DNA of 64,000 bases from positions 1,364,001 to 1,428,000 of the forward strand of contig NZ_CP139970.1 in assembly GCF_034424545.1 (NCBI RefSeq), in the 5' to 3' direction. Origin of the DNA: Trinickia caryophylli. Lineage in GTDB: Bacteria; Pseudomonadota; Gammaproteobacteria; Burkholderiales; Burkholderiaceae. Under the pieces are notes generated by a model that worked only from the letters and a program-made list of their open reading frames with translations, did not search any database and had not been told where the DNA came from. Shown in pieces: positions 323 to 13,957 of the stretch (positions within the stretch are counted from its first letter, which is position 1; every line of letters begins with the position of its first letter). Both the position numbers and the translations under genes were made by a program.

Positions 323-1207
323 TTACTCGGCCTGCACTGTATTCATGTACAGAAAACCGCCCCACTGTCGATAGAAACGGTTCATGCAGTATTCGTAGAG
401 CGGCAGGTCGTACCGGCACGCCTCCATCAGCAATTCGATCGCGCGCAGGCTCAAGGGCTGCCCATGGCGCGTCACGGTACGGCTGCTGCTGCGAGACACC
501 TGACGCAGCGGCGCCAGCCCGCCGGCCCCGGTGGCCTGCTGGCGGGCGAGGAACTCCGGCTCATGGATCGCGGCCAGGATGGCCGCGGCGTTGGCCAGTT
601 CCTCGAGCGGTGCAGTCAGATAAAAGGACCGCAGCGCTTCGAGTGCCAGCGCGTAGGCGTCTTTCGGGGGCGCGACAATGATCGAGCGCCAGACGTCGTG
701 CCGCACCACGCCCTCGTCGACGAGACAAGCGAAGAAGTAGGTGTAGATATTGAAGACGCTGATATCGTCCATCTTCGATTCGATGAACGACTCCAGCGAT
801 ACCTCGGGCCGGCAGCCGAATTGCTCGTTCTGCGTGTCGCGATAGATCTTCCTGGACCATTCGTAGTACGACACGATGCGATCGAACGGATGACGCAGCA
901 CGGTGAAGCAGGCAACCTTCTCCGGCTCGAGATAGCGCTGGATTTGCACCGGCACGTGAATGTGCAAGAACCGGTGCGAAGCGAACTCGCGTTGGAAGGA
1001 CCCTGAGTCGCGCAGCTCGGCGAAAATCGAGAACCGCTTCGACTCGACGAACGTGTCGAGCACGAAGTCGTTGCCGAGGTTGGTGAAAAGAAAATCGAGT
1101 AACGCGCTACCGCCCGTGCGCGGCACGTGCGCGAAGCAGTACCGATTCACTCCTTCCAATTGGCCCCGGGCCAGTGCCAGGGCCTCGTCTCGCGAGGTCA
1201 ACGACAT
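323..1207 (-). CDS. PAPS-dependent sulfotransferase family protein of the glycan operon
   Basis: A 294-residue protein expected to transfer sulfate from PAPS to a sugar or glycan. The 5'-phosphosulfate loop is seen near residues 26-38 (FAHVPRTGGSALLDF, the P-[KR]-T-G-G-S form typical of carbohydrate sulfotransferases), and a 3'-phosphate motif follows as VLRHPFDRIVSYY. No signal peptide or membrane anchor is seen, so it should act in the cytoplasm before export. The longest frame begins 56 codons earlier inside the thiamine enzyme; the ATG at 1207, 11 bp after that gene's stop, is the likely start. It is the last gene of the operon. The acceptor is unknown; the family call is firm, sulfation of this particular glycan is inferred from context. 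Confidence 0.8.
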   Translation of the reverse strand: MSLTSRDEALALARGQLEGVNRYCFAHVPRTGGSALLDFLFTNLGNDFVLDTFVESKRFSIFAELRDSGSFQREFASHRFLHIHVPVQIQRYLEPEKVACFTVLRHPFDRIVSYYEWSRKIYRDTQNEQFGCRPEVSLESFIESKMDDISVFNIYTYFFACLVDEGVVRHDVWRSIIVAPPKDAYALALEALRSFYLTAPLEELANAAAILAAIHEPEFLARQQATGAGGLAPLRQVSRSSSRTVTRHGQPLSLRAIELLMEACRYDLPLYEYCMNRFYRQWGGFLYMNTVQAE

Positions 1208-1218
1208 ACCGTTGCCGC

Positions 1219-2997
1219 TCACATCAAGTACTTGGCGACGCGCGAGTAGAGCTCTTCGGAGAGCTCCGGCGACATCTTGTGAAGCGGGTTGGACGCCATG
1301 CCCGTCGGCGTCACGCGGCTCGTGATCTTCGGGAAGTAGGTCTGTTCCGGATCGATCGTCACGAGGAACGCACACGGGCCTTCGGCCTCGAACTGCTCGA
1401 TGAAGCGCGGATCGTTTTCGTAACCGACGCCCACGCGCACGGCCGGCACGCCGTACGCGGCAAAAAGCGCTTCCCAGTTCGGCAAGCCGAGGCCGGTCTG
1501 CAGATCGCAGCCGACGTACCGGCCGCCGAAATAATTGCGTTGCGTCATGCGAATCGACGCATAGCCCGAATCGTCGAAGACGAACATCTTGAGATTGAGC
1601 TTGTTGACGCCGACCGTTCCGACTTCCTGCAGGTTCTGCGAGAAACCGCCGTCGCCTTCGACGAGAATCACGCGGCGGTCGCGATTCGCAAACGCCGCGC
1701 CGATCGCGCCCGACAGCCCGTAACCCATCGCCGCCAGCCCCTTGTTCGTCACGATGCGCTGCCCGACCTTTTGAGCGAACGTCTGCATCATGACCGTGAA
1801 CGCGCCGCCGCTGCTGCAGGGAATGACGACATCATCGGCACGCGCGAGCGTCGAGAGCCGCTCCACGAACCGGAACGGCGAGAGGTAGCCTTCCCGGGTC
1901 GCGTTTTCTTCCACGAGCGGCAGTGCCTTCTTGACTTCTTCGCAATGGTGCAGCCACTCGGGCCATTGGCCCTCGATTCGCTGCATGATCGGCACAAGCC
2001 ACGCATTGACGTCGGCGCACACGGGCAGGTCCACGCGCGGGTGGCCCTTCGCGAGCTCCGCCGGGTCGCAATCGATCTGAACCACTTTCGCCTTCAGGCC
2101 GAACTCCTGCCAATTGAAGCCCGTTTGCTGAAGACCGAGCCGCGTGCCGAGCGCGAAGATGACGTCGGCTTGCTGCAGCAGCAGGTTGGCGTACCGCTGG
2201 CCCCAGGTGTTGGGCCGGCCGAAATAGCAGCGATGATCGGCAGGCACACGATCCATACCGTTCCAGGTGGTGAAGAGCGGCAAATCATGCCGCTCGGCAA
2301 CAGCAGCCAGCGCGGCCGCCGTTTCACGCGATACACCGCCCCCGATCAGGAATGCCGGGCGCTTCGCGGCGCCAAGCAATGTCAGCGCTTCGTCGATCGA
2401 TTCCTCGGCGCGCTTCACGCCGGCCGGCAGCACGGGTGCCGCCGGCACGTCCGGCTGCGCTGTCGGCAACTCGTTCTCCGCGAGTTGGCGGCCCTGAACG
2501 TCGAGCGGTAGTTCGATGAAAACGGGGCCGTGGCGACCATTCTCGTTGCTCGCGCAAAGAGCGGAGAACTCGGCACGCGAAACCGGAGCGTCGAGGCGCC
2601 GGCTGACGACCGTCACGGGCTTGGCGATCGCCACCCCGTCGACCTCCTGGATACCGCGCTGGCGCAGTTGGCCAAGCGCGAGATCGCTCGTCTTCACCTG
2701 ACCGCCGATCACGAGCAGCTCACGACTTTCCAGATACGCACCGGCCAATGCCGTCACGATGTTCGTGAGCCCGGGGCCCGCCGTGACCAGCGCAAGTGCC
2801 TTGCCCGAGGTCGACGTCGCGTTGAAGTATTCCGCAGCCACCCCGGCCGCCACTTCATGGACCACAGGCACGCATTCCAAATGATGGCTGAGGCTCTCGA
2901 GCAAGTGCATGATGTTGCCGCCGGCAACGAAAAAGCAATGCGTGTAGCCATCGGCCTTGAGCCATTCGGCGATCCAGTCGCTATATTTCTTCTGCAT
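1219..2997 (-). CDS. Thiamine-diphosphate-dependent enzyme, acetolactate synthase-like (YerE-type candidate)
   Basis: 592 residues with the three-domain acetolactate synthase/pyruvate oxidase layout. The catalytic glutamate that activates ThDP is E48 (in VVHEVAAG), the central FAD/nucleotide domain spans about 195-350, and the ThDP motif GDGGF begins at residue 448. The second metal-side residue, normally Asn, appears as Asp (FVFDDSGY, 475-476). Housekeeping acetolactate synthases are not found in polysaccharide operons; downstream of RfbF/G/H the closest known role is that of YerE, which adds a two-carbon unit from pyruvate to a CDP-4-keto-3,6-dideoxyhexose. The start overlaps wzt by 17 bp, indicating translational coupling. 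Fold is certain; the sugar-branching role is inference. Confidence 0.75.
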   Translation of the reverse strand: MQKKYSDWIAEWLKADGYTHCFFVAGGNIMHLLESLSHHLECVPVVHEVAAGVAAEYFNATSTSGKALALVTAGPGLTNIVTALAGAYLESRELLVIGGQVKTSDLALGQLRQRGIQEVDGVAIAKPVTVVSRRLDAPVSRAEFSALCASNENGRHGPVFIELPLDVQGRQLAENELPTAQPDVPAAPVLPAGVKRAEESIDEALTLLGAAKRPAFLIGGGVSRETAAALAAVAERHDLPLFTTWNGMDRVPADHRCYFGRPNTWGQRYANLLLQQADVIFALGTRLGLQQTGFNWQEFGLKAKVVQIDCDPAELAKGHPRVDLPVCADVNAWLVPIMQRIEGQWPEWLHHCEEVKKALPLVEENATREGYLSPFRFVERLSTLARADDVVIPCSSGGAFTVMMQTFAQKVGQRIVTNKGLAAMGYGLSGAIGAAFANRDRRVILVEGDGGFSQNLQEVGTVGVNKLNLKMFVFDDSGYASIRMTQRNYFGGRYVGCDLQTGLGLPNWEALFAAYGVPAVRVGVGYENDPRFIEQFEAEGPCAFLVTIDPEQTYFPKITSRVTPTGMASNPLHKMSPELSEELYSRVAKYLM

Positions 2998-3727
2998 GAT
3001 TCCGTTCAGTCGTTGAGTCTATCGATTCTTCGCCGACGATCTTGCCGTGCGAAACATGCAGAATCCGACTGCATGTCCGTGCGAGCATCGCCTGATCATG
3101 CGATGCAATCACGACGATCGCCGAGCGGTTCATGAGGTGCGTGAGGCGCTCGGAAGCGCGCTCGCGGAATTCGTCGTCGCCGACGCTGAGCCATTCGTCC
3201 ATCAGCAGGATGTCCGAACCCACCGATGTCGAAATCGCAAAGGCGAGCCGCATCATCATGCCGCTCGAGTAAGTGCGCACGGGGAGTTTCAGGTATTCGC
3301 CGAGCCCCGAGAAATCGGCGATTTCGTCGGCATGCGGGCGAATGCGCTTCGGCGACAGGCCCATCGTGATCCCGCGCAATACGATGTTCTCTTCGCCTGT
3401 GGCGTCGGAGTCGAAGCCCGTTGCGATATCGAGCAGCGAAGTCACCGAGCCTTCGATGTCGAGCCGGCCGGAAGTCGGCTCGTAAATCCCGCTGAGCGCC
3501 CTCAACAACGTGGTCTTGCCCGAGCCGTTGTGACCGAGCAGGCCGATGCGCTCGCCGTCACCGAAGTGAAACGACATGCCGTCGACGGCGCGCACGCTGA
3601 CACGCTTGTCGCTACCGGAGAGCCTGCCGCCCGTCGCGGCCTTGAGAAAAGTCTTTCTCATGGACCGCTGCGCGCCCTGGTAAATCGGAAACTCGACGAC
3701 GAGTTCTTCTGCCGTGATATGAGCCAT
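2981..3727 (-). CDS. wzt: Polysaccharide ABC exporter, ATP-binding protein Wzt
   Basis: A 248-residue nucleotide-binding subunit that would power export of an undecaprenyl-linked glycan with the adjacent permease. Walker A GHNGSGKT is at 65-72, the signature YSSGM at about 153-157 (the YSSGM form typical of TagH/Wzt exporters rather than LSGGQ importers), Walker B ILLMDE at 173-178 and the switch histidine in IASHD. It ends soon after the ATPase fold, so it lacks the C-terminal carbohydrate-binding domain found in Wzt proteins that read a chain-terminating cap. It lies 3 bp after wzm and overlaps the thiamine enzyme gene. Confidence 0.9.
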   Translation of the reverse strand: MAHITAEELVVEFPIYQGAQRSMRKTFLKAATGGRLSGSDKRVSVRAVDGMSFHFGDGERIGLLGHNGSGKTTLLRALSGIYEPTSGRLDIEGSVTSLLDIATGFDSDATGEENIVLRGITMGLSPKRIRPHADEIADFSGLGEYLKLPVRTYSSGMMMRLAFAISTSVGSDILLMDEWLSVGDDEFRERASERLTHLMNRSAIVVIASHDQAMLARTCSRILHVSHGKIVGEESIDSTTERNHAEEI

Positions 3728-3730
3728 GGC

Positions 3731-4534
3731 TTACAACCAATACACGATGCGCGAACGAAAGCGCGAGAAAAAGGCGAACGACAGGAATGCCGTTGCGAGC
3801 ATCACCGCCGCCACGCTTTGCCACAGCACCGGATCGAACCGCTCCCCTAGCAGCGGATTGCGCACGAGCTCGAGCATGTAGAAAAACGGATTCAGCTCCG
3901 CGATCCACTCCCGGTTTTTCAGGACGTCGGCACGCCACATGATCGGAGTCATGAAAAACACGACCTGCAGCACGTTGGCGACGATCTGCGGAATATCGCG
4001 AAACCGCGCGCTCAGAAGGCCTACGAGCAGCGCCAGCCAGAACAGGAATACCGCGACGATGGCGAGCCCCACTACGGCCATCGCCAAGCCGGTGAGGCTC
4101 AACGGCCGGAACCAGAGCACGACAGCCAGCAGCACGACCGCGTTATGCGCGAAGATAATCACGTTGCGCCAGATCAGCCTCAGCACATAGGACGCGATCG
4201 GTATCTGTCCTGACTTGATGCTTCCTTCCGCGCCCATGAACACGAAGCAGCTTTCGTTGATCACGGCCGCCATGAAGTTCCAGGTGATCAACCCCGCCGC
4301 CAGATACGGGATGTAGTGTGCGACGTCCTGATGGAACAGTCCCGCATACATGACCCCGAGGCCGGCGACGAGCAGCGCCGTGCTCAGGGTGATCCAGAAC
4401 GGCCCGAGCACGGAACGGCGGTAGCGCTGACGAATGTCGTGCCAGCCGAGAAAGACCCACGTCTCGGTGGCATTCAACGCCTTGCGCAGATCTCCCGCGG
4501 CTTCCGCCATCCGCGTGGAAAACGACTTTTGCAA
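3731..4534 (-). CDS. wzm: Polysaccharide ABC exporter, permease Wzm
   Basis: A 267-residue integral membrane protein of the ABC-2 type with about six hydrophobic segments, including LGPFWITLSTALLVAGLGVM near the N-terminus and paired helices in the middle. It forms the channel with Wzt for moving a lipid-linked glycan across the inner membrane. The frame opens with TTG at 4534, preceded by AGGA at a good distance; the ATG at 4510 (MAEAAGDL) is an alternative. It sits between rfbH (12 bp upstream) and wzt (3 bp downstream). The partner ATPase next door makes the exporter assignment secure; whether the cargo is O-antigen or a capsule-like polymer is not decided by sequence. Confidence 0.88.
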   Translation of the reverse strand: MQKSFSTRMAEAAGDLRKALNATETWVFLGWHDIRQRYRRSVLGPFWITLSTALLVAGLGVMYAGLFHQDVAHYIPYLAAGLITWNFMAAVINESCFVFMGAEGSIKSGQIPIASYVLRLIWRNVIIFAHNAVVLLAVVLWFRPLSLTGLAMAVVGLAIVAVFLFWLALLVGLLSARFRDIPQIVANVLQVVFFMTPIMWRADVLKNREWIAELNPFFYMLELVRNPLLGERFDPVLWQSVAAVMLATAFLSFAFFSRFRSRIVYWL

Positions 4535-4546
4535 TTGCAGTCCTGA

Positions 4547-5860
4547 TTAAAAATTGACGCCGACGAACGTTTCGAGCCGATCGACGACGTAATCGAGCAT
4601 CTCGGACGTCAGCCCCGGGTATACCCCTACCCAGAACGTCTGGTTCATGATGCGGTCCGTCTGCTCGAGCGTGCCCGACACGCGATAGTTGCGCCCCTTC
4701 ATATACGGCTGGCGAGTCAGATTGCCCGCGAAAAGCAAACGCGTGCCGATTTTATACTGGTCGAGGTACTCGAGCAGATCGACGCGGTTGAACGACGCGG
4801 ATTCGCGAATCGTGATCGGGAAGCCGAACCAGGACGGCTCGCTGCCGGGCGTCGGCTCCGGCAGAATGAGAAACTCCTCGCACGAAGCCAGTTTCGACTT
4901 CAGGTAGTCGAAGTTGTGCTTGCGCGCCTCGATGAAGCTCTCGAGCTTGTCCATCTGCGCGAGCGCGCACGCGGCCTGCATGTCGGAGATCTTCAGGTTG
5001 TAGCCGAGGTGCGAGTACGTGTACTTGTGGTCGTAGCCGAACGGCAGATCGCCCAGCTTCCAGCAAAAGCGCTTGCCGCAGGTGTTGTCCTTGCCCGGCT
5101 GGCAGTAGCAGTCGCGGCCCCAATCGCGGATCGATTCCACCGCGCGGCGCAGGTCCGGATTGTTCGTGAACACCGCACCGCCCTCGCCCATCGTGATGTG
5201 ATGCGCGGGGTAGAAGCTCAACGTGCCGATATCGCCGAACGTGCCGACGAGCCGCCCATCGTAGCGCGAGCCGAGCGCGTCGCAGCAGTCTTCGACGAGC
5301 CACAGGTTGTACTTGTCGCACAGTTCGCGCACGACCTTCAGGTTGTACGGATTGCCGAGCGTGTGCGCCAGCATGATCGCCTTCGTCTTCGGCGTGATCG
5401 CCGCCTCGATCAACGCCGGATCGACGTTGTAGGTCGGAATGTCCACGTCGACGAAAACGGGAATCGCACCGTTCTGAATGATCGGATTGACCGTCGTCGG
5501 GAAGCCCGCCGCCACGCCGATCACTTCGTCGCCGGGCACGATCGCGCGCTCGCCGAGCGTCGGCGAGGTCAGCGCCGTGAAGGCAAGCAGGTTGGCCGAC
5601 GAACCGGAGTTCGTCGTCAAGACGTTCTGCACGCCCAGGAATTTGGCAAGGCGCGCCTCGAATGCTTCGTTGAAGCGTCCCGTCGTCAACCAGCCATCGA
5701 GGGCCGCTTCGATCATCAGCCCGACTTCAGCGCCGTCGATCACCTTGCCGGAGGGCGGGATGACGGTCACGCCCGGTTCGAAGTCGCGCCGGCGAAACGC
5801 CTCTTTCGAATATTGTTGAGCGAGTTCGCCGATTTGCTTTCTCAGGGAATCTTGAGTCAT
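4547..5860 (-). CDS. rfbH: CDP-4-dehydro-6-deoxyglucose 3-dehydrase (E1, RfbH/DdhC)
   Basis: A 437-residue PMP- and [2Fe-2S]-dependent enzyme that removes the C3 hydroxyl of CDP-4-keto-6-deoxyglucose, giving the 3,6-dideoxyhexose precursor. Two diagnostic features are present: the usual PLP lysine is replaced by histidine (H220 in [13 protein letters not shown]), and the cluster ligands follow C-X57-C-X1-C-X7-C exactly at C193, C251, C253 and C261. These numbers coincide with those known for the Yersinia enzyme when the ATG at 5860 is used, supporting that start over the TTG at 5878 and ATG at 5875. No gene for the E3 iron-sulfur flavin reductase that feeds it electrons is present in the operon. 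Confidence 0.95.
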
Positions 5861-5881
5861 TGTGAGGACTTCCATCAAGGG

Positions 5882-6967
5882 TCACGCTTCGCAAAAGCGT
5901 GAAATTTGTTCCAGGCACACCTCGCGCATGTCGGCGCCGCCGAGATAGGCGCGATGCCACGAGACCACTTCGTCGAGCGCGCGCGCAAGATCCCAGCGCG
6001 GCTGCCAGCCGAGCCGGCTGCGCGCCTTGGAGCAGTCGAGCTTCAGGTAATGCGCCTCGTGCGGGTGCTTCGTCGCATCGTCGACGCGGTAACCGGCGCC
6101 ATTGCCCCAGATCTGCGCCATGCGCTCGGCAATCCACGACACCGGCTTCGCATCATTGTCGCCCGGTCCGAAGTTCCAGCCTTCCGCGCAATCCATCCCG
6201 CCGCTGGCAAGCCGCTGTGCCAGCACGAGGTAGCCCGACACGGGCTCGAGCACGTGCTGCCAGGGCCGGATCGCGTGCGGATTGCGGATCTGCGCCGGCT
6301 TGCCGCTCTCGAATGCTCGCAGCAAATCAGGCACCAGTCTGTCCGTCGCCCAGTCGCCGCCGCCGATCACGTTGCCCGCGCGGCCGCTCGCCAACGCAAG
6401 GCCGTGCCGCGAGAAATCGGCGGCATTGAAATACGAATTCCGATACGCCGAGACGACAAGCTCCGTACACCCCTTGCTGCTGCTATAGGGGTCGTACCCG
6501 CCCATCGCTTCGTTCTCGCGATAGCCCCACGGCCATTCGCGGTTCTCGTAGCACTTGTCGGAGCTCACCACCACGCACGCCTTGGCCTGTCCCCAGGCAC
6601 GCACGGCCTCGAGCAGATGGACCGTGCCCATGACGTTGGTGGCATACGTTTCGACGGGCGCCTCGTACGAATACCGCACGAGCGGCTGCGCCGCCAGATG
6701 CAGCACGATATCGGGTGCCGCATCGCGCAGCGCGCGCGAGAGCGTATCCGGATCGCGAATGTCGCCGATCACCGAGGCCATATTCTCGCCGACTTTCGCC
6801 TGCGTGAAGAGATTCGGCTCGTCGGGCGGCGCGAGCGCGAAGCCCGTCACCTGCGCGCCCATCCGCTGCAGCCACAAGGCGAGCCAGCCGCCCTTGAAGC
6901 CCGTATGGCCCGTCAGGAAAACGCGCTTGCCTTGCCAGAACGCCGGATCGACTACCACTTTTTCCAC
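5882..6967 (-). CDS. rfbG: CDP-glucose 4,6-dehydratase
   Basis: A 361-residue extended short-chain dehydrogenase. It converts CDP-glucose to CDP-4-keto-6-deoxyglucose, using a tightly bound NAD. The Rossmann motif is [19 protein letters not shown] near residue 15, and the catalytic YxxxK is in [12 protein letters not shown] with the SSDK region upstream ([15 protein letters not shown]). The GTG at 6967 gives the family length and overlaps the end of rfbF by 16 bp; the longer frame starting at 7174 lies wholly inside rfbF and is not used. Gene order rfbF-rfbG-rfbH is the classical CDP-dideoxyhexose block. Confidence 0.95.
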
Positions 6968-7722
6968 GGTGCCTCCCCGCGCGCCCAAAGCTCCTCGAGG
7001 TGGTGCTTGTCGCGCAACGTGTCCATCGGCTGCCAGAAGCCTTGATGCTCGTAGGCCTGCAGTTGGCCTTGACGGGCCAGCGTCTCGAGCGGCTTGCGTT
7101 CCCAGATCGTGTCGTCGCCGTCGATGAGGTCGATGACCGCGGGCTTCAGAACGAAATAGCCGCCATTGATCCACGCGCCGTCGCCTTGAGGCTTTTCGCG
7201 AAAACTTTCGACTTGCCCGTGATTGATGTTCAGCGCGCCGAAGCGGCCCGGCGGCTGCGTGGCGGTGATCGTCGCCTGCTTGCCGTGCGCGCGATGGAAC
7301 GCGATCAGCTTGCCGACGTCGACGTCGGCCACCCCGTCACCGTAGGTGAAGCAGAAATCCTCTTCGCCCGCCAGGTAATCGCGAACGCGACCGAGTCGGC
7401 CGCCGGTCTGCGTGTCCGCGCCCGTCTCGACGAGCGTCACGCGCCACGGCTCCGCGTTGTTCTGGTGAACTTCCATCTTGTTGCTGGCCATGTCGAACGT
7501 GACGTCGGACATGTGCAGGAAGTAGTTCGCGAAATACTCCTTGATCACATAGCCCTTATAGCCGAGGCAGATGATGAAGTCGTTCACGCCATGATGCGAA
7601 TAGATCTTCATGATGTGCCAGAGAATGGGCCGCCCGCCCACTTCCACCATCGGCTTGGGCCGCAGCCCCGTTTCCTCGCTGAGCCGCGTGCCGAGGCCCC
7701 CCGCCAAAATCACCGCTTTCAT
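6952..7722 (-). CDS. rfbF: Glucose-1-phosphate cytidylyltransferase
   Basis: A 256-residue nucleotidyltransferase that makes CDP-glucose from CTP and glucose-1-phosphate, the first committed step of CDP-dideoxy sugar synthesis. The N-terminal signature [18 protein letters not shown] and the following [19 protein letters not shown] are diagnostic, as is the [11 protein letters not shown] metal site near residue 130. The ATG at 7722 is preceded by a strong ribosome-binding site (GGAGGTGG); the open frame extends 19 codons further without such a site. Its 3' end overlaps rfbG. Length and motifs match the family throughout. Confidence 0.96.
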
Positions 7723-7771: not shown

Positions 7772-9304
7772 TCATGCATTCGTCAAGCGCCCCACGGCGC
7801 GCCGCACGACGTTTCTCGCCCGCCGGATCGGATTGACGATCAAGTTCGACACGACGCGCACGGGCGCGGTCGTCTGCCGGCTGATTTCCACCCGGGTCGC
7901 ATATTGCCCGAGGATGGCATGGCTGACGCCGAGGAACTCCCGGCCGAGGCTCAACAGTTCCGCCTGGCTACCCTGCCTGAAGGCATCGTTGGCCGCAAGC
8001 GACATGCGGTACTCGGTGATGTTCGCAACCAGCCTGTTCAGGTCCGTGTCCACCCAGACATGCGGCCGCGCCTCGGCGATATCGAGCACGGCGAGCACGG
8101 CCGCCACTCCCCCCGGCACCGCCGGATCGACGGCAACCCATCCGCACGGCATTTGATAGATGTCGAAGCCCGAGCGGTTAAAGCGCTTGCAGTCGCGATA
8201 GATGTCGCGGTCGTGCTCGGCGTACGTGCGGTGGAAAAGGCGCGTCCACTTGCGCAGTTCGCCGCGCGGCCGCTTGCCTTCGGCAATCTCCTGGATTCGC
8301 TCGATCGGCTCGAACAGATCATAAGCGAACAGGTCGCACGAAACGAGAAAGTCGCGAACCGAGCGGAAAACATCGGGTGCGACCTGATTGCGCGGCTCAC
8401 CGGTAAGGACCGCGGCCTCGACCTGCTTGAAGACCTTGTGGATGCACTCGTGCAGAAACTTGAAACGCGTGCCGTCACGCCGGCCTTCGAAAATCTGAGG
8501 AATGACGGACGGCTTCAATACCCCCTTCGATACGAGGTACTGTAATTGCCGGGTCACACCTATACCCCAGAAATAAAAATCGCCAATTCCATGACGCTTG
8601 GCGAAATTACGGAAGTGATCGAATTGCTGCGTGTCGCCGGCGTGACGATAAAAAACGAGCGGCCGGTTGACGATTCTCGTGCGTCTCTGGTTGAAGCACT
8701 CGAGCAGCCAGCATACGTGCGAGTAGATCTTCTGGACGGCGAGCGCCTCGCGCGCGAGCGAAACCTCGGCGAACCGGCGCCTGAAGATGACGTTCGATAT
8801 ACCGGCGAGCATGAACATGAAGCCGACGGCACGGACGAACTCGTCACCGGTGGCATCGAAATGATCGCCGTTCATCGGCACCATGAACTCGGCCAACAAC
8901 GCGCCGTCGCCGTCGATGAGCCGCGAATTGAAAATGAAGAGATCGGCGGTGTCCGCGCGGATGAGATCGACGAGATCGAGGATCGTATCGCACACGGGAA
9001 CTTCGTCATCGCCATGGAACCATACGAATTCGCCGTTGCAGAACTCGAGCGACTCGAACATGTTCTCTTCGGCTGTCGGCAGGAATTCGGTGCGATTGAT
9101 CAGGCGTACGCGGTCTCCGGCAAGCGGCTCGATGAGCTGCTGCGTCTCGTCCTTGGAGCAGTTGTTGACCACGACGATTTCGACCTGGTCGGTAAACGGC
9201 AGAAGGTTGCGCTTCAGATAAAGCACGAGCGCATGCACCCGCTTGCCGCGGTTGTAGGTCGGAATGCAAATGGTCAGCGCATAGCGCTGGTCGGCAGTTG
9301 CCAT
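7772..9304 (-). CDS. Family 2 (GT-A) glycosyltransferase with a long C-terminal extension
   Basis: 510 residues. The first ~230 form a GT-A domain: [19 protein letters not shown] at the N-terminus, [11 protein letters not shown] around residue 45, and an acidic metal-binding stretch WFHGDDEVP near 95-103. It should add a nucleotide-activated sugar to the growing glycan on the cytoplasmic side. The C-terminal half (about 250-510) has no motif I recognise and lacks membrane segments; it may be a second catalytic or docking domain. It lies 49 bp upstream of rfbF in the operon. Donor and acceptor cannot be deduced; a CDP-sugar donor is plausible from the neighbours. Confidence 0.78.
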
Positions 9305-9338: not shown

Positions 9339-10421
9339 CTATGCCTGATACAGCTTCGTGCGACCAGCTTTGAGCCGGTTCTTGATCACATTCGCCGTAT
9401 ACAGAGGGCCCCGTTCTTTCGACATCAGCCAGATCGTGCGTGCAATCGTCAAATACCGCTCGGCCGGCGTGATCTTCGCCACGTAAGCATCGGACATCGG
9501 CTCCGAGTAAGGCACGCCGCCGACCGCTTCCTGCGTTTGCGCGACAAATCGCCGCAACTCGGCCTCCGCTCGCGCAAACAGGTTCATATACCGCTCGCGC
9601 GCGAGGTGCACCGTCTCGCGCGCGAGCCGCAGTCCTGCCGGATCGTCGCCCCAGACATAGCCCTCGGTGCCGAGCTCGCTGCGGCCGATCAATTCGGTGA
9701 AATGCTCGTTCGGCAGGAAGACGACCGGGCACCCGCAAAGCATGGCTTCGATCGCGAGCGCCGAATTCTCATAGCAATAGAAAACGTCGGAGCGCTGAAA
9801 AAGATCGCGCAGCTGGTCGGGCGTTTGCGCATCCGGGCGGTCGCGAACGATCTCGACCATGCCGTCGGTGACCGGAAACGTCTCGCCGCCATGGTAATAC
9901 TTGTACTTGCCGGCGTAATAGCAGCCGCCCTCGCGCTTCGCTCCGGCCGGCGGAGGAACGAAGAACAACGGATCCGACGCGGGGATGAAAATCGTGTGGC
10001 GTGACTGCGGAACAGTAGCGGCGATGGTGTCGCTGTACGAAATGCAGTACTCGTCGGCCGGAAACTCCTTGTCGCCGCCGAGCAGGCCCGCGTAATTGAG
10101 CACGTAACGGACGACGAAAGGCGCATTGAGCGGATTACCCTTCACGCTCTCCGCGTAAATCGTAATCGGCGTCAATCCGTTCTCGCGGTGGTAGTCCATG
10201 ATGCGCTTCGTCAATTGCGGCGTATTCAGAGCCGGGTGCGCGGACAGGTACGGCGGGAAATGAGGATGCACGATCAAAAACGCTTGCTCGCCCATGCGAT
10301 TGAGCGCATGGCAAAGATAGTGCAGGACCTTGATGCCGGCCGAAGTCCGCACGTAGCGCGGCGCAACTACGTAATACGGGTTTCGCGGCTTCGCGAAGAA
10401 AATGGACTCTAACTCACTCAC
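9339..10421 (-). CDS. Probable GT-B fold glycosyltransferase
   Basis: 360 residues. The N-terminal half begins with YYVVAPRYVRTSAGIKVLHYL and resembles the acceptor domain of GT4-like enzymes. The C-terminal half has a recognisable nucleotide-sugar region, DVFYCYENSALAIEAMLCGC followed by PVVFLPNEHF, equivalent to the E-x7-E/'EAMACGxPV' region of GT-B transferases. The start is the GTG at 10421, which overlaps the epimerase stop by 8 bp and has AGGGA upstream; the 40 codons before it lie within the epimerase gene. Sugar specificity is unknown. With the GT2 gene it is one of only two transferases in the operon, too few for a complex repeat unit unless others are encoded elsewhere. Confidence 0.65.
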   Translation of the reverse strand: MSELESIFFAKPRNPYYVVAPRYVRTSAGIKVLHYLCHALNRMGEQAFLIVHPHFPPYLSAHPALNTPQLTKRIMDYHRENGLTPITIYAESVKGNPLNAPFVVRYVLNYAGLLGGDKEFPADEYCISYSDTIAATVPQSRHTIFIPASDPLFFVPPPAGAKREGGCYYAGKYKYYHGGETFPVTDGMVEIVRDRPDAQTPDQLRDLFQRSDVFYCYENSALAIEAMLCGCPVVFLPNEHFTELIGRSELGTEGYVWGDDPAGLRLARETVHLARERYMNLFARAEAELRRFVAQTQEAVGGVPYSEPMSDAYVAKITPAERYLTIARTIWLMSKERGPLYTANVIKNRLKAGRTKLYQA

Positions 10422-11370
10422 CCGTGGATTTCCCTGCAAAGGAACGCAGATAGGCTGCCGTATCGAGGATCTGTCGATCGAGCGAGCGCGGTGCGATATT
10501 GCAGCGCGCCTCGAGCGTACGTATGCCCGCCGGCGCGCCAACGTAGTAGTTGTTCGGCTCGGCTTTGACGTAAGGCCGCTCGACCGATACCTGGGCGGCG
10601 CCGAGCACGTGCCGGCACCGCTGGGCCAGTTCTCCGACCTCGATCACTTCCGTGCCGACCGTATCGATGATCGACTCGATGCCGATCGTTTCATCCGTCA
10701 TCGAGGCAATAGCCAGCGAGATCAGATCCTCCACCGCATAGTACGAGCGCCAGACCGGATGCGACGCCTGGATGCGTACGGGCTCGTTTCTCAAGCAGGC
10801 GAGGATGATGGACGACAGCGCGTAGAGTTCGTGCTTGTTGATGTACGGCCCGCTCAGATTGAACACGCGCGCGATGACCGCGCGGAATCCGTTTTGCGCG
10901 GCCTTTCCGGCGAACACGCGCTCGTCGTCGAGCTTGCAGCGGCCGTAGATCGCGGCATCCGACCGATTGTCGCGCTCGAGGCCCGCATAGGCCGCACCGC
11001 TCGACGGAACGAACATGCCCGCCATCGCATGAGTGTCGATAAACTCGACGAGTGCCCGGCGGATGCCTTCGTTGCTGCGTACGTACTCGTCGACGGACAT
11101 ATCGCCGACACGATCCTTGGTACGAAACGCATAATGAAACACGATGGCCGGACGAGAAAGCTTGCGCGCGGGCAGCGAGTCGAGCGCATCGACGGCGACG
11201 GTCGCACCGTCAGCGAGCATCACCTCCCGCGCGCTCGAAGCGAACGCATGAATCCGCCCTTCGCCGCCATCCGGAAGACGCCGGCGAAGGTGGTCGAGCG
11301 TTGCGCGCCCCAGCCAGCCCGTCGCGCCGGCAACGACGTAGTCGAAGTCGGTATCGGTTGCCATCGCCAT
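10414..11370 (-). CDS. NAD-dependent epimerase/dehydratase (extended SDR)
   Basis: 318 residues. The N-terminal Rossmann motif is YVVAGATGWLGRATLDHL, and the active site is seen as a serine in VPSSGAAYAG followed by YGRCK (YxxxK). The C-terminal half carries a substrate-binding region with conserved WRSYYAVEDLISL, as in sugar-nucleotide epimerases and reductases. It may epimerise or reduce a nucleotide sugar; one option is the keto-reduction that follows branching in yersiniose synthesis (YerF role). ATGs at 11370 and 11364 are both possible starts; 11370 lies 5 bp beyond the upstream stop. Exact reaction not determinable. Confidence 0.75.
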   Translation of the reverse strand: MAMATDTDFDYVVAGATGWLGRATLDHLRRRLPDGGEGRIHAFASSAREVMLADGATVAVDALDSLPARKLSRPAIVFHYAFRTKDRVGDMSVDEYVRSNEGIRRALVEFIDTHAMAGMFVPSSGAAYAGLERDNRSDAAIYGRCKLDDERVFAGKAAQNGFRAVIARVFNLSGPYINKHELYALSSIILACLRNEPVRIQASHPVWRSYYAVEDLISLAIASMTDETIGIESIIDTVGTEVIEVGELAQRCRHVLGAAQVSVERPYVKAEPNNYYVGAPAGIRTLEARCNIAPRSLDRQILDTAAYLRSFAGKSTGE

Positions 11371-11375
11371 GCCAG

Positions 11376-12452
11376 TCAGAAGGTCTCGATCCCGCGGGCA
11401 AACGCCCCGACGATCGCGGCCTGGTTGGCCTCGTTGCGCTCGAGCGGCACGCGCTGGAGCTCGCCGTCGCCCACCGGCATGATCACGCGATAATGCGTTT
11501 GCGAATGCTTCTTGTCGCTTTCGAAATGCTCGAAGAGCGACTGAGCCGACACGCGGCCGAGCGAACTCAACGTGCCGCGCACCGGCTCGAGCAACGTCTT
11601 GACATGCGCGGCGAGCGTCGCCGCACGCGCTTTCCCGTGCTCGGACAAGCGCTGCGTCTCGAGTGCGAACTGATGGGCCGTCAGCATGCCGACGCCCACG
11701 GCGATGCCGTGCGGCACCTCGAAGTGCGTAGCGGATTCGAGCGCGTGACCGAACGTGTGTCCGAAGTTGAGCAGCAACCGTTCCGCGCGATCGAACTCGT
11801 CCGTCTCGATAAACCACTTCTTCGCTTTCAGGCTGCGCTCGACGATCGAAAACGCCTTGTCGCGCGCGAGCGGAACACCGGGCTGCAATGCCAGATAGGC
11901 GTCGAATTCGTCAGCGCCGCGTGCATAACAGATCTTCACCGATTCCATGAGGCCGCTCGTCAGTTGAGCGGCGTCCAGGCTGTCGGTGAAGCCAAGATCG
12001 ATGAGGATCCGCGCCGGCGGATGGAAGTTGCCGACGAGATTCTTGTACGTGCCGACGTTGATGGACGACTTGCCGCCGATGCAGGAATCGACCATGCCGA
12101 GCAAGGTCGTCGGACAGTAGTGCCAGCGCAGGCCTCGCATGTACACCGATGCGACGAACGTCGCGATGTCCTGGACGATGCCGCCACCTACGGCGACGAT
12201 CTCGGTCTCGCGCGTGGCGCCGAAGCGCTTCAACTGCTCGATGACCGGGGCCATGCGCTCGAGCGCCTTGTTTTCCTCGGTCGCATCGATTTCGATGACG
12301 GGGCCGGAAACGAAGCTCACCTGCTCGCGCAGCCGTGCATCGACGATAAAGATACGGTGCGCGGGCGATTCGACGACCTCGCGCACCAGTCCCTCTCCCA
12401 GCGCGACGCTGTAAGCGCCCGTGGAGCTATTGATTTCAAAGGATGCGCGCAT
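11376..12452 (-). CDS. 3-dehydroquinate synthase-like sugar phosphate cyclase
   Basis: 358 residues of the dehydroquinate synthase family, whose members cyclise a keto-sugar phosphate to a six-membered carbocycle with NAD and zinc or cobalt. Seen: the NAD loop VAVGGGIVQDIATFVAS (about 87-103), VDSCIGGKSSIN (121-132), KNLVG, the metal ligands E170, H232 (NFGHTFGHALE) and H248 (PHGIAVG), and a C-terminal DKK. The core is thus intact. It is not the housekeeping aroB: it lies inside a glycan operon without aroK and overlaps an SDR gene by 17 bp. Paralogues make valiolones or deoxy-inosose, so a carbocyclic sugar for the glycan is a reasonable inference; the real substrate is unknown. Confidence 0.82.
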   Translation of the reverse strand: MRASFEINSSTGAYSVALGEGLVREVVESPAHRIFIVDARLREQVSFVSGPVIEIDATEENKALERMAPVIEQLKRFGATRETEIVAVGGGIVQDIATFVASVYMRGLRWHYCPTTLLGMVDSCIGGKSSINVGTYKNLVGNFHPPARILIDLGFTDSLDAAQLTSGLMESVKICYARGADEFDAYLALQPGVPLARDKAFSIVERSLKAKKWFIETDEFDRAERLLLNFGHTFGHALESATHFEVPHGIAVGVGMLTAHQFALETQRLSEHGKARAATLAAHVKTLLEPVRGTLSSLGRVSAQSLFEHFESDKKHSQTHYRVIMPVGDGELQRVPLERNEANQAAIVGAFARGIETF

Positions 12453-13143
12453 ACGAAAAACCTTTATCGACAGTGATGAACTGCCCTGTGATCGCCCGAT
12501 GCGAGGGCGAGCAGCAGAATTCCACCGCTGCCGCGACATCGTCGACGCGCGCAAGCTTGCCCGACGGCGTGGCAGCCTCGAGCTTCGCGATTTGTTCGGC
12601 GCTCAGATTCGCCCGCGTCATCGGCGTATCGAGCGCGCCGGGCAGCACCGCGTTGATGACGTGGCCCGCCGCGGCGAGATCGATCGAGACCGAACGCACG
12701 AGCCCCTGCAATGCCGACTTGGTCACGCAATAGGACAGCTTGTTCTGGCGGGCGATGTCCTGCCAGATCGAACTGATCACGCACAACCGCGCACCGTCGC
12801 GCGCAAGGCGCCCATGCTCGATGAGCGCGTGCAGCGAGGCAAGCACGTGCACGACGTTGGCCTCGTACATCTGACGATGCCGTTCGAGGTCGAACTGGGC
12901 GATGTTGTCGTTGCAGTTGTCGCCCTGCGCCCATACCACCGCATCGAGCGACTCCAGTGGAGCAGGCGGCACGGCCTGCGCCGCGGGCGCCCACGCCACG
13001 CGCGCGCAGCCGGCCACGGGCTCGCCGTCGCCACGGGCGACGGCGAGTACCTCCCACCCTCGCTGGGCAAACCAGGCCACCAGCGCACTGCCGATGGCCC
13101 CGGTCGCACCGAAGACGGCGATTCGAGCTCGCTTCGATGACAC
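12436..13143 (-). CDS. Short-chain dehydrogenase/reductase
   Basis: 235 residues of the classical SDR type: cofactor motif IAVFGATGAIGSALVAWF at 8-25, the NNAG-equivalent VVWAQGDN, the catalytic serine in CVISSIWQD and the YxxxK pair in SYCVTKSALQG, ending with a family-typical GQFITVDKGFS. It should oxidise or reduce a hydroxyl or keto group on the product of the cyclase or aldolase that flank it. It starts 10 bp after the aldolase stop and overlaps the cyclase start by 17 bp, so the three are probably made together. Substrate unknown. Confidence 0.85.
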   Translation of the reverse strand: MSSKRARIAVFGATGAIGSALVAWFAQRGWEVLAVARGDGEPVAGCARVAWAPAAQAVPPAPLESLDAVVWAQGDNCNDNIAQFDLERHRQMYEANVVHVLASLHALIEHGRLARDGARLCVISSIWQDIARQNKLSYCVTKSALQGLVRSVSIDLAAAGHVINAVLPGALDTPMTRANLSAEQIAKLEAATPSGKLARVDDVAAAVEFCCSPSHRAITGQFITVDKGFSYARIL

Positions 13144-13153
13144 GACGCGCCTC

Positions 13154-13957
13154 TTAGGAGTTGCCGTTCAGCACTTTCCACCGCTCTTCGAGCATGCGGA
13201 TGCGCTTGTCGTCTTCCTTCTCGATGAGGCCGTAGTACTCACGCTTGTTTTGCAGCCACAGCAATTCGAAGTGCACGGCCTGCAGCAGACCGGCCTCGAT
13301 GTTCGGCTGGCGCAGCGCATCCGCCGAGTAGATGATCTTGCGCGTTTCGAAACGCGTGAGATAGTTTTCGCTGAGACGGCGCAGGGCCGGCAAGGCATCC
13401 ATCGACACGCCGCCGCCCACGACGAGCTCGAGGCCCGCCTGCTTCGCCGCCGTGCCGGTGGCGATCGCATAGTCGGTTACCTTGTCGCTGTTGATATCGT
13501 CACGCGACATGCCGTTCGAGAGCGAGAAATCCACGCGGCCGAACACGACACCCGTCAGGCCGTTGGGTACGCTCGCCGCGCCCACGAGGCCCTGCAGGTT
13601 GTTGTAGCCAGTGATCGTCTCGAGGTTGAACAGGAACTTCGTATCCTGTTGCTCTTCGGCCGAATAGACCTTGTTCTTGGCTTCGATAAACTTGCTCACC
13701 GCATAGGGCGACTCGATCATCGGCGCAATGATGTATTCGACGCCGATTTGCTTGCTTTCGAGCAGATCGCGGATGGCTTCACAGCCGCCGATCTTCAAAC
13801 CCACACCGACACCCGCCTTGCGCGCGATTTCGATCAGGCGCAGCAGTTCGTCGACACGCGTGCCCTCCGCTTCGAACTCGGCCTTCACGGCGAGGTAGCC
13901 GAATTCCTCCTTCCCTCGGCGAAGGATTTCCAACATCTTGCGTTCACGGCTATTCAT
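13154..13957 (-). CDS. HpcH/HpaI (citrate lyase beta)-type aldolase, first gene of the glycan operon
   Basis: 267 residues of the pyruvate/acetyl-CoA-utilising TIM-barrel aldolases. Family marks are [19 protein letters not shown] in the middle, the metal-binding glutamate in [11 protein letters not shown], and [14 protein letters not shown], equivalent to the FGxxDfs Asp site. Such enzymes cleave or form a bond between pyruvate (or a CoA ester) and an aldehyde. The ATG at 13957 is preceded by GAGGAG seven bases upstream; the frame to 14086 is not needed. It could supply or consume a keto-acid sugar in concert with the cyclase. Function in a surface glycan pathway is not known to me. Confidence 0.75.

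Follow-up and report, generated by a model that had tools for sequence, protein, structure and literature searches.

A three-gene cassette in the O-antigen operon of Trinickia caryophylli very likely supplies the 2-keto acid from which the six-carbon branch of caryophyllose is made. The genes encode an HpcH/HpaI-superfamily aldolase, a classical short-chain dehydrogenase/reductase (SDR), and a dehydroquinate synthase (DHQS)-like protein, here also called the cyclase, and lie on the minus strand of the window (Table 1), by which we mean the whole 64,000-nucleotide stretch of contig NZ_CP139970.1 that was analyzed. The operon around them contains a Wzm/Wzt-type exporter and very probably makes caryophyllose: RfbF, RfbG, and RfbH, the enzymes that make CDP-3,6-dideoxyhexos-4-ulose, are encoded beside the trio, the thiamine diphosphate (ThDP)-dependent carboligase is of the MMAR_2332 type (named through the mycobacterial genome G243, itself recognized as Mycobacterium marinum-like by gene order), and the species is a caryophyllose producer. 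The original prediction had correctly located the trio, its place in a surface-glycan export operon, and the complete set of cyclase metal ligands, and the unusual keto-acid–derived sugar that it proposed is very probably made.

The available text of PMC9026286 describes the T. caryophylli lipopolysaccharide as made up chiefly of a (1->7) caryophyllose homopolymer, with a caryose polymer in lesser amount, and that of PMC5706390 gives caryophyllose, on which publications date back to 1995 according to a reference list, as 3,6-dideoxy-4-C-(D-altro-1,3,4,5-tetrahydroxyhexyl)-D-xylo-hexopyranose. The branch, CHOH-CH2-CHOH-CHOH-CHOH-CH3, is a methyl-ended C6 chain. According to the sections of PMC12247030 available, YerE-like ThDP enzymes transfer the acyl unit of a 2-keto acid to C4 of CDP-3,6-dideoxyhexos-4-ulose, and ErwE prefers longer hydroxylated keto acids (4-hydroxy-2-oxo acids), MMAR_2332 being said to be similar. 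Because the chain has six carbons and a methyl end and the ThDP-dependent transfer is decarboxylative, the branch would need a C7 2-keto-3,7-dideoxy acid, which could be produced if a pyruvate aldolase used erythrose 4-phosphate, a second enzyme eliminated the phosphate to leave a methyl ketone, and a ketoreductase then acted on that ketone. From the name D-erythro-D-gulo-decose printed in the same partial text of PMC9026286, we derive that the side-chain centers C7 to C9 are all D, that is, D-ribo. By the same derivation 3-deoxy-D-arabino-heptulosonate 7-phosphate (DAHP), the ordinary shikimate acid, is unsuitable, which would explain why a dedicated aldolase is encoded. A literature search over open-license PMC papers returned no account of the origin of the caryophyllose side chain and, for the R. 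palustris sugar, nothing beyond an NMR review.

As the best explanation for these genes we propose the following route, which we regard as probable as a whole, its reactions being read from gene content. The aldolase would join pyruvate, or phosphoenolpyruvate (PEP), to D-erythrose 4-phosphate, giving 3-deoxy-D-ribo-heptulosonate 7-phosphate, the C4 epimer of DAHP. The DHQS-like enzyme would oxidize C5, expel phosphate from C7, and reduce C5 again, as in the first half of the dehydroquinate (DHQ) synthase reaction, which performs such a phosphate elimination, and the C6 enol would end as a methyl ketone, 3,7-dideoxy-hepto-2,6-diulosonate, instead of a ring. Of the proposed steps this noncyclizing elimination is the one we hold less firmly, as rather likely. 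The SDR would reduce the 6-ketone before the diketo acid closes, yielding a methyl-ended 3,7-dideoxy-heptulosonate, which the YerE-like enzyme, in a role known for its homologs, would decarboxylate, attaching the resulting six-carbon acyl group at C4 of CDP-3,6-dideoxyhexos-4-ulose. An epimerase-like protein would then reduce the C1' ketone of the branch, the role of YerF, and glycosyltransferases and Wzm/Wzt would act thereafter, with the caryophyllose homopolymer (caryophyllan) exported as O-antigen. An intermediate of the 3,7-dideoxy-hepto-2,6-diulosonate type also occurs in the archaeal DHQ synthase II route, where the protein is unrelated and DHQ forms by closure of the diketo acid.

The start of the DHQS-like gene overlaps the end of the SDR gene by 17 nt, and these two genes are therefore very probably translationally coupled; the aldolase stop lies 10 bp from the SDR start. 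No NCBIfam model and, in a PDB sequence search, no structure matched the window aldolase, whose PF03328 score of 29.3 bits compares with 38 bits for a mycobacterial aldolase. Foldseek searches with its AlphaFold model (pLDDT 91.5) gave a probability of 1.00 to SbnG, HpaI, HpcH, and YfaU at a TM score of ~0.6, but pyruvate kinases equal these scores and one of them ranks first; the protein is thus likely a pyruvate- or PEP-enolate enzyme in a broad sense. Residues E113 and D143 are invariant in 16 sequences and are, by eye, candidate counterparts of the Glu/Asp metal ligands of HpcH. The window carboligase was likened to YerE by homology through a mycobacterial relative: it shares 51 to 53% identity with the ThDP protein encoded in mycobacterial lipooligosaccharide (LOS) loci (52% for G243). 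We detected no close YerE-like paralog in the genome, where other ThDP matches are at most 31% identical. The system resembles YerE and ErwE of yersiniose and erwiniose biosynthesis in the CDP-3,6-dideoxyhexos-4-ulose acceptor and ThDP-dependent acyl transfer from a 2-keto acid, but yersiniose uses pyruvate and ErwE prefers 4-hydroxy-2-oxo acids, whereas the window encodes a dedicated trio for the C7 keto acid that we propose.

The T. caryophylli genome (two contigs totaling 6,589,281 bases, 4,294,907 of them in C1) carries aroB at C1:1720556, outside the window, and the DHQS-like protein is the only other DHQS homolog encoded. Its best model is TIGR04425 (AroB-related putative sugar phosphate phospholyase, cyclizing), at 300.6 bits against a cut-off of 400, and it scores 247 with the aroB model, below the cut-off of 305. 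In a phylogenetic tree, it was found outside a clade (support 0.989) of 18 DHQS homologs presumed to be AroB, and housekeeping AroB was rejected for it, as the original prediction had anticipated. The cyclases of the aldolase loci described below (module cyclases) fall together with TIGR04425, though weakly supported (0.741 in this tree; 0.901 in another, of the 90 sequences left after removal of frames shorter than 300 aa and identical sequences), and form no clade apart from it. Numbered from the start at 12452, the protein has its metal ligands at E170, H232, and H248. Thirteen DHQS active-site positions (Aspergillus nidulans numbering) were compared, and none varies among 60 module cyclases, 7 mycobacterial cyclases, and the 18 presumed AroB proteins. 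The window protein thus shares fold family and active-site residues with AroB and differs from it in clade, model score, genomic partners, and a proposed product without a ring. ValA/EEVS and DDGS share its superfamily and metal site but differ at three positions at which the DHQS residues persist in module cyclases. In ValA and DDGS, K250 is replaced by M, N268 by D or A, and H275 by P; an EEVS-like protein from Bradyrhizobium carries M at K250 and D at N268. R264 is retained in ValA, so that only K250 separates the groups cleanly. Because the DHQS-type positions are kept, unlike in ValA and DDGS, the substrate should be a keto-acid phosphate. The heptulose phosphates suggested earlier came near this, but the active site is not of the type that uses sedoheptulose 7-phosphate, and a sedoheptulose-type cyclase was rejected on K250, N268, and H275. 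The EEVS-like protein belongs to Bradyrhizobium sp. CCGUVB4N (L177, C1:2161401-2163701), where it is a third DHQS homolog, nearest to ValA in the PDB and apparently an EEVS-like sedoheptulose cyclase.

Genome contigs were scanned with the aldolase alignment, and from 591 stretches, 528 of which encode relatives, the best 80 were taken as loci; they are the closest relatives of the window aldolase, not a random draw. Both SDR and cyclase are present in 57 loci, neither in 20, and one only in 3, where the stretch ends close by. Among the 53 well-flanked loci, which have at least 4.5 kb on either side of the aldolase, 40 encode both, 13 neither, and none one alone; one of the 13 (L077) has its SDR and cyclase ~17 kb off, and in one locus scored as having the cyclase (L016) this protein clusters with TIGR04425. 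A ThDP match was found in 50 of the 53 and an RfbF, RfbG, or RfbH match in 51, weak RfbG-like matches included. The arrangement of the trio is not due to chance, and, recurring as it does in many genomes, it is not special to this operon, as had been supposed. Some loci (L161, L058, L059, L054, L010, and similar) encode RfbF/RfbG with no RfbH in the stretch and a ThDP protein 32 to 35% identical; modules lacking RfbH are expected to make branched sugars that retain the 3-hydroxyl.

Approached from the cyclase side, 398 genomes of the phylum contained four window-type cyclases (in G000, the genome of the window, and in G618, G465, and G657; 286 to 301 bits with TIGR04425, the line being drawn between 286 and 270 bits). 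The latter three (286 to 296 bits) all have aldolase, SDR, ThDP gene, and RfbF/G adjoining; loci L013 and L004 probably stem from G618 and G465, which therefore count as no further loci, although the aldolase played no part in choosing them. The 270-bit cyclase of G482 has none of the module partners in its 5.5-kb contig. The neighborhood search gave RfbF/G/H and ThDP genes as partners, and an association with aromatic catabolism was rejected. That the window protein is a second DHQ synthase of shikimate or aromatic metabolism, standing in the O-antigen operon by chance, would accord with active-site positions identical to those of AroB, but given the separate aroB, the distinct AroB clade, and the frequency of ThDP and Rfb partners in well-flanked loci, it is extremely unlikely.

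Loci without the SDR–cyclase pair often have a HAD-family phosphatase in its place. When gene families around the aldolase were compared across loci with the cyclase (40) and without it (12, leaving out L077), the HAD family was present in 8 of the 12 and in none of the 40. By tblastn and profile, strong HAD matches occur in 12 of 22 cyclase-negative loci versus none of the 58 that have the cyclase; if only matches no more than 1 kb from the aldolase are counted, the figures are 10 of 22 versus 0 of 58. The 22 include L077 together with L024 and L052, which have an SDR and whose stretches end soon after. Eight of the loci scored by the profile had served to build it, so that it is circular for those, which leaves the 0 of 58 unaffected; two cyclase-positive loci have weak HAD matches 4.6 to 6.2 kb away. 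Fisher tests gave p = 6e-8 (9 of 12 versus 0 of 40) and 6e-6 (seven adjacent), to be read as guide values since the loci are not independent. Two of the HAD proteins were scanned and matched HAD_2 of Pfam, with PpaX and phosphoglycolate phosphatase as nearest models, below the cut-offs of the latter two. Most simply, the aldolase would yield a phosphorylated product, from which the phosphate has to be removed either by hydrolysis, leaving a CH2OH end, or by elimination and reduction, leaving a CH3 end.

Reduction of the 6-ketone by the SDR ahead of closure would explain why SDR and cyclase are so strictly paired. The SDR might instead be the C1' branch ketoreductase, in the role of YerF and unrelated to the cyclase product, since such a reductase is required and SDRs are capable of the reaction; yet it is absent from all 12 compared cyclase-negative loci, where the branch ketone would need reduction too, and epimerase-like relatives occur in both sorts of locus (17 of the 40 cyclase-positive and 5 of the 12 cyclase-negative), which makes this role for the SDR improbable.

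Four true TIGR04425 proteins (>400 bits) were found among the 398 genomes. None of their stretches contained a match to the window aldolase or ThDP gene, and three have an SDR beside them by blast, the fourth (L164) having an SDR-like open reading frame (ORF) ahead of it by eye. The window protein, which has TIGR04425 as its best model and likewise an SDR neighbor, differs from this family in its partners and in scoring below the cut-off. KdsB- or PseF-like cytidylyltransferases lie near two of these four (L164 and L166) and near the TIGR04425-type cyclase of the mycobacterial relative L168, which also holds a GarL/HpaI-like aldolase; inspection by eye of L165 and the incomplete L167 revealed no such cytidylyltransferase. 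The cyclases of L164, L166, and L168 are also near an SDR, a 2-hydroxyacid dehydrogenase, and a SIS protein (GmhA-like in L164 and, by eye, in L166). Perhaps these three are clusters for an undescribed CMP-activated deoxy-ulosonic acid; the aldolase–ThDP and CMP-ulosonate contexts would both use a free 2-keto-3-deoxy acid. We lean slightly toward the broader view that organisms from proteobacteria to actinobacteria and cyanobacteria plug the SDR–cyclase pair into aldolase–ThDP pathways as an alternative to a phosphatase, setting a CH3 or a CH2OH end, much as TIGR04425 proteins are plugged into CMP-ulosonate pathways.

The same end product could be reached in another order, with the DHQS-like enzyme and SDR making a 4-deoxy-tetrose from erythrose 4-phosphate or another short sugar phosphate and the aldolase then adding pyruvate. 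This order would explain the SDR–cyclase pairing and the replacement by a phosphatase equally well, with a substrate too short for ring formation. K250 and R264, the carboxylate binders of DHQS, are however found without exception in 67 of 67 module cyclases, whereas K250 is replaced by M in ValA, DDGS, and the EEVS-like protein, whose substrate has no carboxylate, and the TIGR04425 relatives near CMP-ulosonate synthetase-like genes point to ulosonic acids. We consider it unlikely and prefer elimination from the seven-carbon aldolase product.

Three Mycobacterium loci were among the matches of the aldolase scan. Of 297 genomes drawn from this genus, the aldolase was detected in 8, and close relatives of the M. 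asiaticum cyclase (82 to 100%) in 7, all within those 8; one further cyclase match (G217, 37%) is accompanied by different partners. ThDP, aldolase, SDR, cyclase, and FGGY kinase genes are contiguous beside RfbF/G/H in five genomes (G243, G168, G104, G038, and G241), and in split modules the aldolase is ~12 kb (G294) or ~17 kb (M. asiaticum, G001) from the SDR–cyclase–kinase part. In M. terramassiliense (G002, L079), the aldolase occurs without a cyclase, and a HAD phosphatase gene lies 348 bp behind it. The G243 locus continues with polyketide synthase, AMP-binding, MMPL, and condensation-domain genes, an order that fits the M. marinum LOS gene numbers printed in the available excerpts (fad25 = 2341, papA4 = 2343, pks5_1 = 2344). 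MMAR_2332 is the ThDP gene in the available part of PMC12247030, and by gene order from it MMAR_2331 would be the aldolase. In the available excerpts on M. marinum, mutants of MMAR_2331, MMAR_2332, and MMAR_2333 all accumulate LOS-II*, which lacks the terminal caryophyllose, and the authors leave MMAR_2331 open between synthesis and transfer. The M. marinum LOS caryophyllose branch and the window thus have RfbF/G/H-like proteins, ThDP carboligase, aldolase, SDR, and DHQS-like protein in common and belong to the same sugar family; the mycobacterial module differs in its additional FGGY kinase, in serving a glycolipid rather than a Wzm/Wzt O-polymer, and in a DHQS-like protein 35 to 42% identical to that of the window over the aligned part. 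The FGGY-family kinase gene lies 3' of the mycobacterial cyclase (L122:7298-8569, L104:2420-3697) and has no counterpart behind the cyclase of the window.

These loci also bear on whether the DHQS-like enzyme closes a ring, so that the trio would make a glycan carbocycle such as caryose, as the original prediction had suggested. Carbocyclic caryose does occur in T. caryophylli, in its minor polymer, the window protein is the sole non-AroB DHQS homolog of the genome, and it keeps all 13 DHQS positions. The module is nevertheless found in M. marinum-type LOS loci, whose sugar, caryophyllose, is not carbocyclic; a phosphatase often replaces cyclase and SDR; a ring product would be no donor for a 2-keto-acid decarboxylase; and a second export cluster fits caryose better. 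We rejected caryose as the product of the trio and consider ring closure very unlikely. The second cluster (L099, C1 ~810.8-824.8 kb, outside the window) encodes Wzm, Wzt with Wzt_C, an HddA-like kinase, an HddC-like nucleotidyltransferase, a GDP-fucose-synthase-like epimerase, and an RfbH-like DegT protein, the last four below model cut-offs, as well as a split transketolase, a B12-binding radical SAM protein, and two weak sulfotransferase matches; we did not detect a DHQS homolog in it. As a lead, it is a better candidate for caryose than the trio: a C7 heptose and a C2 unit would give the nine carbons of caryose, the radical SAM protein perhaps forming the ring bond, with no need for the window DHQS-like protein. 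For the carbocyclic bradyrhizose of Bradyrhizobium, an eleven-gene cluster is given in the partial account available, and we considered it from that description only.

Several observations weigh against the noncyclizing route to caryophyllose that we prefer. The DHQS active site is complete, so that the sequence gives no sign that aldol closure is suppressed, and closure of the enol is known to be easy in DHQS. Both erythrose 4-phosphate and a D-ribo configuration were deduced from the name of the sugar, the mycobacterial FGGY kinase is superfluous in the scheme, and MMAR_2331 was equated with the aldolase by gene order. Ten of the 40 cyclase-positive well-flanked loci have only a distant ThDP protein (<40%), 3 have none, and some lack RfbH; such loci would make other sugars or were cut. 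Four of the 13 well-flanked cyclase-negative loci (L037, L048, L071, and L077) lack a strong HAD match, in L034 and L043 a distance of 2.5 to 3.2 kb separates the HAD gene and the aldolase, and L066 has neither the pair nor a HAD gene within its 14.7-kb stretch. Finally, in the available part of PMC12247030, MMAR_2332 is shown active only with a benzaldehyde-derivative acceptor, and with no ketone.

The rest of the operon is listed in Table 1. The RfbG open frame is matched by its model from residue 79, which places the true start further in; the window RfbH is the sole match over the cut-off in the genome, and the Wzm-like protein has one further match there, 25% identical. The sulfotransferase-like gene closes the operon and may modify the O-polymer; since a LysR regulator, a catalase, and other genes lie beyond it, the operon ends near the window edge. 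On the other flank of the trio are recG, queA, tgt, yajC, and secDF, named by inspection of the sequence. The nearest named relatives of three proteins searched are from Trinickia acidisoli. The aldolase was found in 2 of 11 Trinickia genomes searched, that of the window included, which suggests that the O-antigen locus is variable within the genus.

Table 1. Genes of the trio and of the surrounding operon (window positions; Pfam scans of the aldolase and the DHQS-like protein used longer open frames)
Feature	Position	Strand	Length	Basis and remarks
HpcH/HpaI-superfamily aldolase	13957-13154	minus	267 aa	PF03328 29.3 bits (cut-off 25)
Classical SDR	13143-12436	minus	235 aa	PF13561 93 bits, PF00106 57 bits
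DHQS-like protein	12452-11376	minus	358 aa	PF01761 121 bits, PF24621 86 bits
NAD-dependent epimerase/reductase-like	10414..11370	minus	318 aa	PF01370 58.7 bits
Putative glycosyltransferase	9339..10541	minus		ORF, true start uncertain; inspection of sequence; no Pfam/NCBIfam match
Family 2 glycosyltransferase	7772..9304	minus		PF00535 63 bits
RfbF, glucose-1-phosphate cytidylyltransferase	6952..7722	minus		TIGR02623 479 bits, over cut-off
RfbG, CDP-glucose 4,6-dehydratase	5882..7174	minus		TIGR02622 505 bits, over cut-off
RfbH, CDP-4-keto-6-deoxyglucose 3-dehydrase	4547..5878	minus		NF011936 754 bits, over cut-off
Wzm-like O-antigen exporter permease	3731..4534	minus		ORF start TTG; inspection of sequence and position
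Wzt-like O-antigen exporter ATPase, short form	2981..3727	minus		Inspection of sequence
YerE-like ThDP-dependent carboligase	1219..2997	minus	592 aa	TPP_enzyme N/M/C domains
Sulfotransferase-like	323..1375	minus		PF03567 28.7 bits; ORF, start uncertain

The proposed scheme gives T. caryophylli a route to the caryophyllose side chain that can be tested gene by gene, and the same genes would extend it to the LOS of M. marinum-type mycobacteria, where MMAR_2331 would be assigned to the aldolase step. It would also add a new reaction to a textbook fold, a cyclase of the shikimate-pathway family that strips phosphate and leaves a methyl group. If the rule holds, the presence of cyclase and SDR, or of a HAD phosphatase, would predict the end group of the branched sugar in many glycans that may not yet have been analyzed.

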